From Terramyces sp. JEL0728 (Eukaryota > Chytridiomycota > Chytridiomycetes > Rhizophydiales > Terramycetaceae): 14,662 nt of DNA. A model generated the notes under the pieces. It searched no databases, was not told where the DNA came from, and saw only the letters and a list, made by a program, of their open reading frames with translations. Positions 744 to 13,877 of the stretch are shown here, one piece after another (within the stretch, counting starts at the first letter, position 1; each line of letters begins with the position of its first letter). A program made the translations under genes and the position numbers. The stretch lies in the NCBI GenBank assembly GCA_027603945.1, contig JADIIU010000207.1, positions 1 through 14,662 of the forward strand. Reading direction: 5' to 3'.

Positions 744-1799
744 ATGACTGCAGGAGATATTGAATTGAATGAACCACCTAAAGATGGAATCACCAGTGTA
801 AAATTCAGCCCAACAGATCCGCATGTACTTGCAGTTACATCTTGGGATAAGGTACCTACAAAATAAACCAGACATTATCAGTTTACCAAGTTGATCATAA
901 CCTTAAACAAGCTGAACAATTACATCCTGGACCAGTATTGGATGCAGCATTTTCTACTGATGGGAAATATGTATACAGCGGAGGATTGGAAGGGGTTTTG
1001 TATTCGTATTTGTTGTTAATGTAGATTTGAAATTGAAACTTTGAAAGCACACAAGATTGGAGACCATGATGCTGCAATCAGCTCTATTGTTACTACGGAT
1101 GAATATATTATCAGTGGTGGATGGGATTGCAAAGTGCAGATATGGCAGAACGGACGATTGGTAAAAACATTGGAACAGCCTGAAAAAGTATATTCAATGG
1201 ATATTATTGATAGCAACCTCGTGGTTGGTCTGGCTAAACGTTTGATCCATATCTACGACATTCTAGATTTGGATAGAGCACCAACAAAGCGTGAGAGTTC
1301 CTTAAAGTTCATGACCAGAAAGGTTGCCTGTATACCAAACGGAAAAGGCTATGCTACAGCTTCAATCGAAGGAAGATGCTCTGTGGATTTGTTTGGCGAC
1401 ACTGAAGAGGATTTGGCTCAAAAATTCTCTTTTAAATGCCATAGGCAAAAAAAGAATGAAGCTGAATATATTTACCCAGTTAATGCGCTCGCTTACCATC
1501 CAAAGCAGCAACAATCGTTTGCAACTGGTGGTGGCGATGGCGTAGTTAATATTTGGGATGGGTCTCAAGTACATTTTATTAACATTAGAAAAAGCGGTTG
1601 AGACAGTTTGCTACTTATCCAACTAGTATTTCATCGCTGTCATTCAATTGTACAGGGGGTTTATTGGCAATTGCTTCCAGCTACACGTTTGAAGAAGGCG
1701 AAAAAGAGTACATGCGATTAACCTAGTCATCCGCCAGATCAACTGTTTATCAAGGCTATTAGCGAATCTGATGTTGTTCCTAAATCAAAAACACGTTAA
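744..1799 (+). CDS. BUB3: Mitotic checkpoint WD40 protein BUB3
   Basis: BUB3 is the seven-bladed WD40 propeller that docks BUB1 and BUBR1/MAD3 on kinetochores in the spindle checkpoint. Exons are 744-851, 872-1005, 1025-1568, 1589-1707 and 1727-1799. The four introns (20, 19, 20 and 19 nt) are all GTA...AG. Splicing gives 325 residues, the usual BUB3 length. Diagnostic segments are TSWDK near residue 34, [62 protein letters not shown] and [15 protein letters not shown] near the C-terminus. The FKCHR and YPTS segments favour BUB3 over the related RAE1. The ATG at 744 begins directly before the first propeller strand. The stop codon is part of TAATAAA. ARF1 follows 227 bp downstream. Confidence 0.93.
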
Positions 1800-1803
1800 T
1801 AAA
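1797..1803 (+). terminator. Stop codon overlapping poly(A) signal of BUB3
   Basis: TAATAAA: the TAA stop supplies the first two bases of AATAAA (1798-1803). This is a sequence match only; the cleavage site is not visible. Confidence 0.55.
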
Positions 1804-1953
1804 TTGAAAAAAGAGAAATATCACAGAGTCAATATTAGTCCTGGACAAGGCGCGATTTAACTGGCACGCAATCGATATGCTGTGAGACTCTTACGTGTAG
1901 TTCACTCCCTATCAATCATTTCGTCTTTTGCAACTTACACGTTTGTAGAATTT

Positions 1954-1961
1954 TGATTGGC
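1954..1961 (+). promoter_or_regulatory. Inverted CCAAT box upstream of ARF1
   Basis: TGATTGGC on the coding strand is the reverse complement of GCCAATCA, about 66 bases before the ARF1 start. The same word, in the same orientation relative to the gene, precedes RPS8 and the second ARF gene at similar distances. This fits an NF-Y/HAP-type site. Confidence 0.5.
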
Positions 1962-2026
1962 TGGAGGAAGCCACAACAAAAACGACGATAAAAAAGCGTT
2001 CGCCTTTCCAATCTAAATCAAAAAAC

Positions 2027-2625
2027 AGTATGCTTAAAATTTAACCTAGTGGGTTTGTCAATTTCCAAACTATTCGGATGGGGAACCAAAGAAATGAGAA
2101 TTTTAATGGTTGGATTAGATGCTGCTGGTAAAACCACCATTCTATACAAGTTGAAATTAGGAGAAATCGTAACTACCATTCCAACCATCGGTACTCGCTG
2201 ATTGATCCTAGGATTCAATGTCGAAAATGTTGAATATAAAAACATTAATTTCACAGTATGGGATGTCGGTGGTCAAGATAAAATCAGACCTTTATGGCGT
2301 CACTATTTCCAAAACACCCAAGGTACATTATTGCTAAACAGGGATTATTTTTGTAGTTGATTCTAATGACAGAGAACGTGTTGTTGAAGCTCGTGAAGAA
2401 CTTCAACGTATGTTGAATGAAGACGAGCTACGCGACGCTGTTCTCCTCGTTTTTGCAAACAAACAAGATTTGCCAAATGCCATGAACGCTACTGAAATCA
2501 CCGATAAACTAGGCTTGCATTCTATCCGCCAACGTCAATGGTTTATCCAAGCTACTTGTGCTACTACTGGAGATGGTTTGTTTGAAGGTTTGGAATGGTT
2601 GTCAACCAAACTTAAGGGCAAATAA
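2027..2625 (+). CDS. ARF1: ADP-ribosylation factor 1 (start codon split by an intron)
   Basis: ARF1 is the small GTPase that recruits coats and lipid kinases to Golgi membranes. The spliced product is 178 residues. It has Gly2 for myristoylation, GLDAAGKT (P-loop), PTIGFNVE (switch I), WDVGGQ with the catalytic Gln (switch II), NKQD and the CATTG segment. Exons are 2027, 2050-2190, 2212-2322 and 2342-2625, separated by introns of 22, 21 and 19 nt. Intron 1 (2028-2049) lies between the A and the TG of the initiator. The only ATG nearby, at 2030, lies inside that intron and gives a four-residue peptide. An unspliced message could start only at an in-frame GTG. The gene is close to the inverted paralogue at 12447-13003; a 41-base block near the start is identical. 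The TAA sits inside AATAAA, with a second AATAAA at 2645-2650. Confidence 0.92.
2028..2049 (+). other. 22-nt intron splitting the ARF1 initiation codon
   Basis: The intron begins GTATGC, contains TTTAAC as a branch-point candidate and ends CCTAG. Removing it joins A2027 to TG at 2050-2051, then GGT TTG TCA, which is the ARF N-terminus Met-Gly-Leu-Ser. Neither ARF paralogue in the window has an intron here. Confidence 0.8.
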
Positions 2626-2626
2626 A
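2621..2626 (+). terminator. Poly(A) signal containing the ARF1 stop codon
   Basis: AATAAA with the TAA stop (2623-2625) inside it. A second hexamer lies 20 bases downstream at 2645-2650. Confidence 0.5.
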
Positions 2627-12374: not shown

Positions 12375-12424
12375 CTCTAAAAAACGCGAAAGTTTTCAAA
12401 GCATATTTGAGATACAAAACATAT

Positions 12425-12430
12425 TTTATT
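12425..12430 (-). terminator. Poly(A) signal of the second ARF gene
   Basis: AATAAA on the minus strand, 16 bases past the stop codon at 12447. Confidence 0.45.
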
Positions 12431-12446
12431 GGAGAGACTGTTTTGG

Positions 12447-13003
12447 TTATTTGCTTTTGAGTTTAGTAGATAACCATTCCAATCCTTCGAATAGCCCGTC
12501 GCCAGTGCTTGCGCAAGTAGATTGGATAAACCATTCGCGATTTCGGAGTGGATGAAGTCCTAATTTATCCGTCATTTCTGAAGGACTCATTGCCTCTGGC
12601 AGATCTTGTTTGTTTGCTAAAACCAGTACAACGGCATCTCGCAATTCATCTTCGTTCAGCAAGTGCTGCAACTCTTCTTTTGCTTCTTGGATACGTGATC
12701 TATCATTCGAATCGACCACAAATATAATTCCTTGACTGTTTTGGAAATAGTGCCTCCATAAAGGTCTGATAGTATCTTGGCCCCCGATATCCCATACAGT
12801 GAAATTAACGTTTTTATATTGTACATTTTCGACATTGAATCCTAGGATTAATTAAGAGTACCGATGGTTGGAATGGTAGAAACCAGCTCACCCAATTTCA
12901 GCTTGTACAAGATGGTGGTTTTCCCAGCAGCATCCAATCCAACCATTAAAATCCTCATTTCTTTGGTTCCCCATCCGAATAGTTTGGAAATTGATAAACC
13001 CAT
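12447..13003 (-). CDS. ADP-ribosylation factor, second ARF1-like copy
   Basis: A class I ARF GTPase of 178 residues with every functional motif: Gly2, [26 protein letters not shown] and CASTG. Exons are 13003-12862 and 12841-12447. The single 20-nt intron (12842-12861) is at the same position and phase as ARF1 intron 2 and begins GTACTC like it. The ATG here is intact, and the third ARF1 intron (in the Gln-Gly segment) is also absent. Protein identity to ARF1 is roughly 85-90% by eye, while coding DNA is near-identical only near the start. It lies inverted relative to ARF1 across the window. Two CCAATCA boxes sit 58 and 82 bases upstream. Confidence 0.93.
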
Positions 13004-13304
13004 TTTTGTTTGAATGATCCATTGCTGTTGACTTTTTATGCACAGCTGTCAAAGTTGTGACCAATCAAATCAAAGCAACTCTCACCAATCAGAAATCTAC
13101 ACAATTGGTTTCAAAGATGTTTACTTGAAATGTGGAAGAAAATCATTGGACAGGTGCCATGTTACTCACAAGAGTCATGTAACTCGTTCTGCACGCGATA
13201 GAGGTACTTTGGATCTAACTGAGGCAAATATAGACGTTTCATTAGAGCGAATATAAAAGAAATACTTGAAATCAAACACGTTGAATTTACTAAAGCTAAA
13301 ATAA
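13004..13304. other. Spacer between the two minus-strand ARF genes
   Basis: This 301-bp spacer holds the promoter of the ARF gene at 12447-13003, with CCAATCA boxes at 13061-13067 and 13085-13091. A short inverted repeat, GTTAC...GTAAC, lies around 13160-13185. A 72-codon plus-strand frame (13038-13256) has no recognisable features and I do not call it. Confidence 0.5.
13061..13091 (-). promoter_or_regulatory. Paired inverted CCAAT boxes upstream of the second ARF gene
   Basis: CCAATCA occurs on the plus strand at 13061-13067 and 13085-13091, spaced 24 bp. Relative to the gene it reads TGATTGG, as at ARF1 and RPS8. Confidence 0.5.
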
Positions 13305-13877
13305 CTACTTTTCTTGATTTTGAATGCGTTGTTCGTGTTTAGCAGATAACCACTTCAAACCTGCATACAATCCTTCACCTGTGGTTGCACTTGAAGATTG
13401 AATAGTCCACTCGCGATTGCTAAGACTGTAGAGTCCCAACCTATCTGCCATTTCTGGAGCCCCCAAAGCGTTAGGCAGATCTTGCTTGTTGACGAAAACT
13501 AACAGCAGTGCATTCGGCAGTCCCACTCTGTCCAGTAATTCATGTAATTCGTTCTTTGCCTCCTCAATTCTATCGCTATCATTCGAATCAACGACGAATA
13601 CTATTCCTTGAGTGCTTGATAAATAATGGTTGGATAACTGTCTGTAGTTGTTTACACCCATATCCCATGCTGTGAAATCAGTATTCTTGTATTTAAATAT
13701 TTCGACGTTGAATCCTACAATGAAATTCCAGCTACCTAAAGTCGGATCTGTTTGAATAAACTTTTGAAATTTATACCTGTAGAGGATTGTAGATTTCCCG
13801 CTGCGGTCCAAACCAACAATTAAAATCCCCATTGCGTTTGTCGGCTTCTTGAATAATTTGGATATGGACAAGCCCAT
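13305..13877 (-). CDS. Divergent ARF-family GTPase with degenerate switch II
   Basis: Exons are 13877-13736 and 13714-13305. A 21-nt intron (13715-13735, GTAGCT...GTAG) lies at the same site as in the other ARFs. It has no stop in frame, so an uninterrupted 190-residue frame is also possible, but removal restores PTLGFNVE and gives 183 residues. Retained features: MGLSISKLF with Gly2, P-loop GLDRSGKS, the switch I Thr, NKQD, and an SATTG-like segment. Switch II is altered: the WDVGGQ motif becomes WDMGVNN, losing the second Gly and the catalytic Gln, and the segment to HY is one residue short. The C-terminus is longer and polar. It ends in TAG. It probably arose by duplication of an ARF and may hydrolyse GTP poorly; this is inference. 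A palindromic GTGAGTCAC (Gcn4/AP-1-like) lies at 13918-13926 upstream. Confidence 0.85.
   Translation of the reverse strand: MGLSISKLFKKPTNAMGILIVGLDRSGKSTILYRYKFQKFIQTDPTLGSWNFIVGFNVEIFKYKNTDFTAWDMGVNNYRQLSNHYLSSTQGIVFVVDSNDSDRIEEAKNELHELLDRVGLPNALLLVFVNKQDLPNALGAPEMADRLGLYSLSNREWTIQSSSATTGEGLYAGLKWLSAKHEQRIQNQEK

Follow-up and report, generated by a model that had tools for sequence, protein, structure and literature searches.

The 14,662-nt stretch of contig JADIIU010000207.1 analysed here (the window) carries ten genes whose coding introns are, with one exception, 19-23 nt long, which raised the question of whether introns this short are real, how far they extend over the genome and how a spliceosome could accommodate them. 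The host was identified as Terramyces sp. JEL0728 (Chytridiomycota, Rhizophydiales) by an eEF1A 100% identical to that of the named species, and two GenBank proteins, P0121 (from a TPH-like coiled-coil gene) and P0124 (PIK1), are encoded on the window contig. The "flagellate opisthokont" proposed in the preliminary description of this DNA is therefore a chytrid fungus. Terramyces is free-living and cultivable.

Intron candidates in the window were sought with GT..AG or GC..AG ends and curated by hand. The curated set comprised 33 coding introns in ten genes, with lengths of 19 nt (n=5), 20 nt (n=13), 21 nt (n=11), 22 nt (n=2), 23 nt (n=1) and 77 nt (n=1), so that 32 were 19-23 nt and one, in RPS8, was long. 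Among candidates sought with such ends, 32/33 were GT-AG and 1/33 was GC-AG. For each intron, it is stated below whether it was also called by a gene model trained on a 200-kb sample without the window and run with flat lengths (flat run), with a length prior (prior run) or with both. Hand placement applied to the intron in the ARF start codon, to the GC-AG intron and to the exact ends of the 77-nt intron.

The BUB3-like WD40 gene (744-1799, forward strand) contained a 20-nt intron at 852-871 (prior run) with a junction ungapped against solved relatives, a 19-nt intron at 1006-1024 and a 20-nt intron at 1569-1588 (both runs), each also supported by the comparison with solved relatives, and a 19-nt intron at 1708-1726 (both runs) whose removal restored the C-terminus. 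An ARF start codon was split (A|TG) by a 22-nt intron at 2028-2049 on the forward strand, and the product aligned from residue 1. ARF copy a, on the same strand, showed a 21-nt intron at 2191-2211 (both runs), at TIG|FNVE, and a 19-nt intron at 2323-2341 (prior run), each consistent with the ARF alignment. The TIG|FNVE position was also occupied on the reverse strand in ARF copy b (20 nt, 12842-12861, both runs) and, as TLG|FNVE, in ARF-like copy c (21 nt, 13715-13735, prior run).

On the reverse strand, the LETM1-domain gene (3167-3880; LETM1_RBD Pfam match) had a 20-nt intron at 3231-3250 (prior run), removal of which restored ERGMP, and a 19-nt intron at 3544-3562 (both runs). RPS8 (4010-4712, reverse strand) had a 23-nt intron at 4117-4139 (both runs; eS8 match) and the sole long intron of the window, 77 nt at 4261-4337, which gave a full-length eS8-chain match and carries a GTATGT donor and TACTGAC ahead of TCTTTAG. 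The fold of the 77-nt intron was not clearly better than that of shuffles (z -1.58), and a snoRNA inside it was rejected as three matches were all far under the cut-offs.

The DNAJC7-like gene (5140-6917, forward strand; DnaJ domain match 1-63/63) was interrupted at 5231-5250 (20 nt), 5650-5671 (22 nt), 6118-6138 (21 nt) and 6386-6405 (20 nt), all in both runs, and at 6553-6573 (21 nt, prior run), where the J-domain YHPDKR with its HPD was restored. Immediately 5' of its start, a 20-nt segment at 5116-5135 on the forward strand matched the strict core motif given below; it was called as a coding intron from an upstream ATG in the prior run and was kept as a 5'-UTR candidate. The Tctex-1 dynein light chain gene (11762-12374, reverse strand; domain match 2-95/95) had 20-nt introns at 11810-11829, with the YFE end restored, and at 11964-11983 (both runs).

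In PIK1 (6942-9868, reverse strand), the 20-nt introns at 6966-6985 and 7219-7238 (both runs) and the 21-nt intron at 9642-9662 (prior run) were spliced in P0124. The 19-nt intron at 7493-7511 (prior run) was missed by GenBank, and the catalytic DRHNGN is absent from its PIK1 protein at this point; removal restored RDRHNGNILLD, in line with the Globomyces and Batrachochytrium orthologues. Two 21-nt introns without an in-frame stop were retained by GenBank, at 7969-7989 (prior run; orthologues read DDPSASVFREPW) and 8548-8568 (both runs; no insert in the Boothiomyces orthologue). The TPH-like coiled-coil gene (9919-11640, reverse strand), perhaps flagellar, had six introns spliced in P0121, five of them called in both runs (10216-10235, 10731-10750 and 11129-11148 of 20 nt; 10591-10611 and 11299-11319 of 21 nt, the last with a GTG donor) and one in the prior run (11434-11454, 21 nt). 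Its 21-nt GC-AG intron at 10892-10912 was supported by the Globomyces orthologue P0122, which is ungapped across it, and P0121 lacks 31 further residues there. Overall, the GenBank proteins splice 9/13 introns checked in these two genes, the four missed ones are backed by orthologues, and each of the 13 junctions is bridged without a break in one orthologue or more. A single-protein scan of viral_contigs found no DNA of relatives.

Judged by the restored coding frames and by protein-level agreement with orthologues, the window introns are real and the ultrashort-intron observation is confirmed. The preliminary description had reported 32 introns, 31 of them at 19-23 nt; the ultrashort class stands, and the curated count is 33, of which 32 fall in that range. 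The two sets would coincide if its fourteenth 20-mer was 5116-5135 and the two stop-free PIK1 21-mers had been omitted. Its examples of motifs restored on removal (DRHNGN, HPD, ERGMP and YFE) all held.

The extent of this intron class was assessed in a sample independent of the window, 200 kb taken as 10-kb stretches from 20 other contigs. A control pass of the gene finder with flat lengths and GT..AG as the sole consensus gave 49 introns of 19-22 nt, while nine other dinucleotide pairs used as controls gave 1, 6, 4, 4, 2, 3, 4, 2 and 8, a 6- to 49-fold difference. Because the GT..AG peak at 19-22 nt has no match in the control pairs, the short window introns are not a product of chance. The trained model with flat lengths placed 179/244 introns at 19-22 nt and 65/244 outside; most of the latter were taken as false, judged by the control-pair pass, and a minority of longer introns, like that of RPS8, may be real. 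With the length prior, which was set by hand from earlier passes so that its counts are no independent test of length, 241/259 introns were 19-22 nt and 9/259 were over 26 nt (18 nt: 2, 19 nt: 64, 20 nt: 101, 21 nt: 56, 22 nt: 20, 23 nt: 2). The independent tests of length were the control-pair pass, the flat-length model, a spacing count of GTA..YAG pairs and a grid with free branch position. Short introns were present on 20/20 stretches (6 to 24 per stretch), and the sample total of 245 extrapolates to ~18,000 in the genome. The length counts over the sample bore out the proposed genome-wide style, with an ultrashort complement in which nearly all introns lie within a few nucleotides of each other and under ~25 nt.

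Applied to the window, the prior run recovered 30/33 introns among 34 calls, the extra four being the UTR candidate and three that were rejected, and the flat run recovered 21/33 with 9 further calls rejected. Prior-run calls at 1795-1813 and 13290-13308 lay past the BUB3 and ARF-c stops, respectively, and were discarded. The model's 80-nt RPS8 intron was replaced by the 77-nt version, and its division of the coiled-coil gene into two was rejected since the halves are joined by the GC-AG intron.

The short introns shared one anatomy: a GTA donor followed weakly by AATT (commonest donors GTAATT, GTATTT and GTAAAT), about seven free bases, a YTRAY branch site and a YAG end. The branch A was intron nucleotide 14 or 15, in some 16, with position 13 at background, and it fell at 14, 15 or 16 in 234/245 short introns of the sample. 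From the branch A to the 3' end there were mostly 5 or 6 nt, 5 being commonest. The preliminary description had put donor and branch site about ten bases apart; this has to be corrected, as the branch A lies 13-15 nt past the first G. Among the control-pass introns, the best branch A was at 14-16 in 40/49, and all three signature features were present in 34/49 against 5.9% of 4757 random GT..AG 19-22-mers. The pattern GTA..YTRAY..YAG, restricted to a branch A at 14-16 that is followed by 5-7 nt (nine grid cells), occurred 150 times against 14.8 expected. In the free-position grid, 51 matches had A14 with 5 nt after it and one had A13 with 5 nt, and nothing beyond branch position 16 exceeded the background maximum of 7. 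Inside predicted genes, the motif was found 134 times in sense (130 being called introns) and once in antisense, with 6.1 expected each. An intron does not require the core motif, and the motif by itself does not fully suffice to mark one: in its strict form it fits 14/33 window introns, and it also occurs in an exonic ARF 20-mer that codes for conserved residues (2353-2372) and antisense to the BUB3-like gene (1072-1093). GTA..YAG pairs at 13 nt were likewise 3.0 sd over background, which counts against this picture.

The genome was also searched for splicing components. The U2 snRNA was found (140.2 bits) with an intact GUAGUA box, to which the YTRAY branch site, at its constrained distance to the AG, is complementary. 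U2AF-large matched with an E value of 3.5e-74 over positions 68-471 of 510, at 251.7 bits below the cut-off of 310.3 and with two prokaryote controls matching weakly; its gene is interrupted by stops in the genome frame. SF1-HH was found as two adjacent pieces above the cut-off, with zero control matches. The core genes of U2-type splicing (U2, SF1 and U2AF) were thus represented. Of the genes that the preliminary description had singled out for inspection, U2 and SF1 were found, and U1 gave no Rfam match in the genome. A pattern for the U1 5' end gave two matches, L041 and L040, and when these loci were scanned with Rfam at E values up to 1, no U1 emerged; on visual inspection, L041 is a short-intron donor of the opposite strand and L040 resembles coding sequence. 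Two U6 Rfam matches, on C199 and C111, were below the cut-off, aligned to U6 without the AGC triad and were rejected, and U6 patterns gave 6 and 5 matches, of which the flanks of 3 and 5 were read and none continued as U6. RED is reportedly a factor for short human introns; its profile matched neither the genome nor any control, and the search is uninformative because the controls lacked a match too. U12-type introns have an ATATCC or GTATCC donor and a TTCCTTAAC branch site. The anatomy and the genes found suggest ordinary U2-type splicing at a steric minimum.

The sequence itself gives the coding-frame evidence, the lengths, the spread over 20 contigs, the two spacings, the U2 GUAGUA box and the U2AF-large and SF1 genes. 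From these, it is very probable that this is a nuclear genome with genome-wide U2-type introns, nearly all 19-22 nt, that have a two-ruler anatomy. An ordinary fungal length spread, from which a reader seeking short introns had picked the short tail, could appeal to the 77-nt RPS8 intron and to the introns over 26 nt in the prior run (9/259) or outside 19-22 nt in the flat run (65/244). However, the flat control pass at 30-150 nt showed no excess, with 59 GT..AG introns against 70-92 for the controls, whereas at 19-22 nt GT..AG exceeded the controls 6 to 49 times, and the grid past branch position 16 never rose above 7. A large class of long introns is refuted in the 200-kb sample, and an ordinary spread is very improbable. 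Even less credible is that the segments are DNA removed from the genome in the manner of ciliate IESs, programmed frameshifts or sequencing errors. The shortest IESs are near these introns in length, but IES ends are TA..TA, and the GT..AG ends, the branch motif at fixed spacing, the sense bias of 134 to 1 and the U2 snRNA, U2AF and SF1 genes all argue against it.

Under the preferred reading of U2-type introns shrunk to a floor, intron definition would have U1, then U6, occupying the first six bases or so and U2 the branch site, and the 13-nt distance between G1 and the branch A would be the least that the Terramyces spliceosome tolerates. An AG directly after the branch site would leave no room between them for a polypyrimidine tract, so U2AF would have to act with little or none. 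The introns were probably shortened by deletion to the 13-nt floor and then stayed there. As to the cause, neutral deletion to the floor contends with an altered spliceosome that is unable to use longer introns, size being the recognition signal, which we regard as the less likely of the two. Lengths bounded on both sides in the prior run (two introns each at 18 and 23 nt) would fit the altered spliceosome, while the clean 77-nt intron in RPS8, a gene usually highly expressed, and the normal appearance of U2, U2AF-large and SF1 speak against it. In its favour, a drop in splicing is reported for nucleomorph introns of 21-27 nt (PMC5014332).

The ultrashort state is here placed in a chytrid fungus and not in a relict nucleus, an intracellular parasite or a giant ciliate, which, with the free-living habit of Terramyces, separates it from parasitic genome reduction. 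The sharp 13-nt floor sets a limit, open to measurement, on how a spliceosome assembles at a single intron. A practical concern is that a length cut-off can conceal such introns; a pan-eukaryotic survey excluded all introns under 30 bp (PMC10639083). The preliminary description would have been refuted by placement in a lineage in which introns this short are already documented. This did not occur within the literature covered: the host is a chytrid, and among the matches listed in open-licence PMC there was no intron-length report for Terramyces, Boothiomyces or chytrids; a Batrachochytrium paper gives intron counts and, in the part seen, no lengths (PMC5364385).

Complements of this kind are already known from Stentor, mikrocytids and nucleomorphs, and what is new is an intron-rich fungus as a member. 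At 19-22 nt, its introns come near the lower end of the lengths recorded for any organism. The preliminary list of precedents named nucleomorphs and Stentor, both of which stand, and lacked the mikrocytids. Chlorarachniophyte nucleomorphs have over 800 introns of 18-21 nt (PMC10245619), nearly the same range as in Terramyces, but they are relict endosymbiont nuclei, whereas Terramyces has a full fungal nuclear genome with an extrapolated ~18,000 introns. Mikrocytid introns (16-17 nt, n=224; PMC10245619) are likewise uniform, very short and conserved, in an intracellular parasite with a much reduced spliceosome, whereas Terramyces is intron-rich and has U2AF-large and SF1 genes. Paramecium and Nyctotherus also have ultra-short introns only, of ~25 bp, those of Terramyces being ~3-6 nt shorter, and 3n introns of Paramecium tend toward in-frame stops (PMC5014332); here 43/55 3n introns had in-frame stops against 86/172, a bias that may be a detection effect. 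Finally, Stentor coeruleus, a ciliate with a giant cell, has introns of 15-16 nt with the branch A at nucleotide 10 or 11 (PMC9505925). It shares with the fungus genome-wide tiny GT..AG introns, a GTA donor, an intact U2 GUAGUA box and a branch-to-end distance of 5 nt, the commonest in Terramyces, but its branch site has no strong consensus, in contrast to the strong YTRAY at 14 or 15 here. With the case for and against evenly poised, a free-living intron-rich fungus would have compressed practically its whole complement (~18,000) to 19-22 nt, and the distance between G1 and the branch A would stop at a floor of 13 nt that is sharp to one nucleotide; against 9 nt in Stentor, this floor would be lineage-specific while the 5-nt branch-to-end distance is shared, so that the 5' spacing would reflect how the early spliceosome has changed in a given lineage.

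The gene finder written for this study combined a coding model for both strands with introns permitted anywhere, and was trained on 200 kb of 20 other contigs of the assembly; the window was never in the training set. Run with flat lengths of 13-100 nt, i.e., no length preference, it recovered 21 of the 33 introns finally accepted in the window along with 9 more calls that were rejected, while a length prior, set by the analyst from earlier passes on the sample, gave 34 calls of which 30 were accepted. Curation left 33 coding introns, distributed over ten genes that each then read in a single frame with no internal stops. 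Five introns were 19 nt long, 13 were 20 nt, 11 were 21 nt, two were 22 nt and one was 23 nt. The sole long intron (77 nt, 4261-4337) was found in RPS8. One intron of the coiled-coil protein gene (10892-10912) had GC-AG ends, and a 20-nt candidate intron immediately preceded the DNAJC7-like start. The three ARF-type GTPase genes, at 2027-2625 (a), 12447-13003 (b) and 13305-13877 (c), shared an intron position, TIG or TLG | FNVE, with intron lengths of 21, 20 and 21 nt, and an ARF start codon was divided (A|TG) by a 22-nt intron. Copies a and b are inverted, facing each other, with 73-90% identity by stretch.

The junctions were supported at the protein level. Almost the whole of RPS8 could be aligned to solved eS8 chains; in the three alignments displayed, 1-2-residue indels lay within about ten residues of the 77-nt junction and no indels were found at the 23-nt junction. 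The ARF-a alignment started at residue 1, the J domain of the DNAJC7-like protein and the Tctex-1 domain were both complete, and junctions 1-3 of the BUB3-like gene were ungapped against relatives. The best solved matches of this WD40-type gene were mRNA export factors, followed by yeast Bub3; the name BUB3 is kept here as a presumption from family sequences. For the coiled-coil gene, the Globomyces protein was ungapped at all seven junctions. This gene and PIK1 contain 13 introns, of which nine are spliced in the GenBank proteins. The four missed were the GC-AG intron, where the GenBank protein also lacks 31 further residues, a 19-nt intron of PIK1 (7493-7511), where RDRHNGNILLD is absent from the GenBank protein, and two 21-nt PIK1 introns with no in-frame stop (7969-7989 and 8548-8568), both retained, with a net gain of seven residues apiece. 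Splicing was favoured by orthologues in all four cases: by Globomyces and Batrachochytrium for 7493-7511 and 7969-7989, by Globomyces also for the GC-AG intron, and by Boothiomyces for 8548-8568, where other orthologues were too divergent to judge. On this alignment evidence, the GenBank proteins of the contig look wrong at these four introns. The Boothiomyces PIK1 protein begins past the position of the first short intron of the gene and has a long gap in the kinase region, from exactly the 7969-7989 junction to beyond 7493-7511, which hints that the same annotation trouble perhaps exists there.

The window is a complete contig (C207) of an assembly that comprises 15.0 Mb in 231 contigs. The eEF1A gene of the assembly, a single open frame on contig C25, encodes a protein that matches the one of Terramyces sp. 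JEL0728 at 100% identity and those of two Boothiomyces at 98%. The preliminary description had called the source flagellate and opisthokont-like, which was borne out: Terramyces sp. JEL0728 is a chytrid fungus (Chytridiomycota, Rhizophydiales, Terramycetaceae). Genes of the window compatible with a flagellum were those for the Tctex-1 dynein light chain and the coiled-coil protein, the latter with a TPH match slightly below the Pfam cut-off. The contig ends (1-589 and 14074-14662) form an inverted repeat of 589 nt with 98% identity, the initial 523 bases being identical. Each arm encodes a protein of about 195-198 aa containing Asn-Gly and Lys-Ala-Lys-Gly tracts; the two versions are almost the same, and the left-end one had no Pfam match. 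This terminal inverted repeat is probably what halted the assembly and set the limits of the contig.

For the genome-wide extent, a sample of 20 stretches of 10 kb from 20 other contigs was used. Without any gene model, GTA..YAG pairs were overrepresented at spacings of 19 nt (228, with the mean at 152; 5.6 sd) and 20 nt (222; 5.2 sd), weakly so at 21 and 22 nt (1.3 and 1.8 sd), and the top values at 40-100 nt were 191 (52 nt) and 190 (86 nt). An excess was also seen at 13 nt (193 against 152, 3.0 sd), likewise at 3.0 sd for GT..AG pairs, for which no explanation was found. In a first gene-finder pass, with introns of 12-150 nt, a flat length prior and GT and AG as sole requirements, 114 introns were called, 49 of them at 19-22 nt, compared with 1-8 at these lengths for nine control dinucleotide pairs given the same scores. 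At 30-150 nt the GT..AG count (59) was under that of the controls (70-92), so there was no sign of a long intron class. The combination of +3 A, -3 pyrimidine and a branch motif some 3-8 nt from the end was present in 34 of the 49 short introns and in 5.9% of 4757 random GT..AG segments of matched lengths, and 40 of the 49 had their best branch A at position 14-16, counted from the first G of the donor. Under flat lengths, the trained model put 179 of its 244 introns in the 19-22 nt range. The gene-finder predictions obtained with the length prior comprised 126 genes and 259 introns, of which 241 measured 19-22 nt, 245 measured 18-23 nt and nine measured 38-102 nt. All 20 stretches contained short introns (6 to 24 each), and the genome-wide occurrence proposed in the preliminary description thus held in the sample. 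Extrapolation of 245 per 200 kb, a figure from the 20 largest contigs, to 15.0 Mb would give approximately 18,000 introns.

The clearest result came from a grid in which the GTA..YTRAY..YAG motif of the earlier passes was counted on both strands with free spacings, by branch A position and distance from A to the intron end. The counts formed a tight block: 51 and 29 for A at 14 with 5 and 6 nt after it, 28 and 20 for A at 15 with 5 and 6 nt, and 10 for A at 16 with 6 nt. The row for A at 13 was background (1 and 2), 252 distant cells having a mean of 1.64 and a maximum of 7. In predicted genes the core motif (A at 14-16, 5-7 nt after A) occurred 134 times in sense and once in antisense, against 6.1 expected per strand. 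A total of 130 of the 134 were called introns, a partly circular figure because the calls came from the trained matrix; the grid and the strand bias are much less circular. Among the 245 short introns, the branch A was at 14 (108), 15 (106), 16 (20) or elsewhere (6), or was weak (5), followed by 5 (118), 6 (96), 7 (13), 4 (9) or another number (4) of nucleotides. Of the 32 short introns of the window, 28 had their branch A at 14-16, two at 17, one at 10 and one at 12. The donor was GTA, followed by A in about half, and at +5 T (0.41) was more frequent than G (0.22). An in-frame stop was present in 43 of 55 introns of 3n length versus 86 of 172 others (p = 0.0003); since 3n introns free of stops also escape detection more easily, no selection is claimed. 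The strict core motif was found in 14 of the 33 window introns and at three other places, among them an exonic ARF 20-mer (2353-2372) and a segment on the strand opposite the BUB3-like gene. The 20-mer fits the full intron motif, yet encodes conserved residues, and offers a natural decoy for asking how introns are told apart.

The U2 snRNA gene was canonical, with the GUAGUA box, and genes for SF1 and the U2AF large subunit were present, the latter interrupted in the genome frame by four stops, which is what introns would produce. Searches of the assembly by family and pattern gave no convincing match for U1 and U6 snRNA. Two very similar 105-nt elements, on contigs C199 (L038) and C111 (L039), showed weak U6 likeness and no AGC triad, and are perhaps a repeat. 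Judged from the canonical U2 and the U2AF large-subunit and SF1 genes, the short introns are most likely of the ordinary U2 type and as small as the machine will accept. The donor would occupy about the first six bases, and the branch helix would take the intron nearly to its end, with AG directly after. The sharp step between A at 13 and A at 14 fits a steric floor that would be set by the simultaneous seating of U6 at the donor and U2 at the branch site; deletions probably shrank introns to this floor.

A machine that has become dependent on short introns is the less supported alternative, given that RPS8 carries a clean intron of 77 nt whose donor is GTATGT. Hairpins are possible in this intron, yet its fold was not convincingly above shuffles (z -1.58), and no RNA family reached the cut-off. 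In human cells, some short introns are reported to depend on SPF45 and not on U2AF (PMC8363638).

Among the matches listed in the open-licence literature, there was no account of ultrashort introns in chytrids; the accessible text of a 590-species survey contains no word starting with chytrid, and another survey excluded introns under 30 bp (PMC10639083). Within that literature the pattern seems undescribed so far, and the data are already public since the GenBank proteins show most of the introns checked. Reports on other lineages give introns of 16-17 nt in mikrocytids (224 in M. mackini, with a reduced spliceosome) and more than 800 of 18-21 nt in nucleomorphs (PMC10245619), 23 nt as the shortest in Trichomonas (PMC12316389), and about 25 bp in Paramecium, where 3n introns often have in-frame stops (PMC5014332). 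Stentor is reported to have 15- and 16-nt introns with the branch A at 10 and 11, respectively, hence 5 nt to the intron end, and without strong branch consensus (PMC9505925). On these figures, the 5-nt end is common to Stentor and Terramyces, whereas the front differs by four nucleotides and Terramyces has a strong YTRAY.
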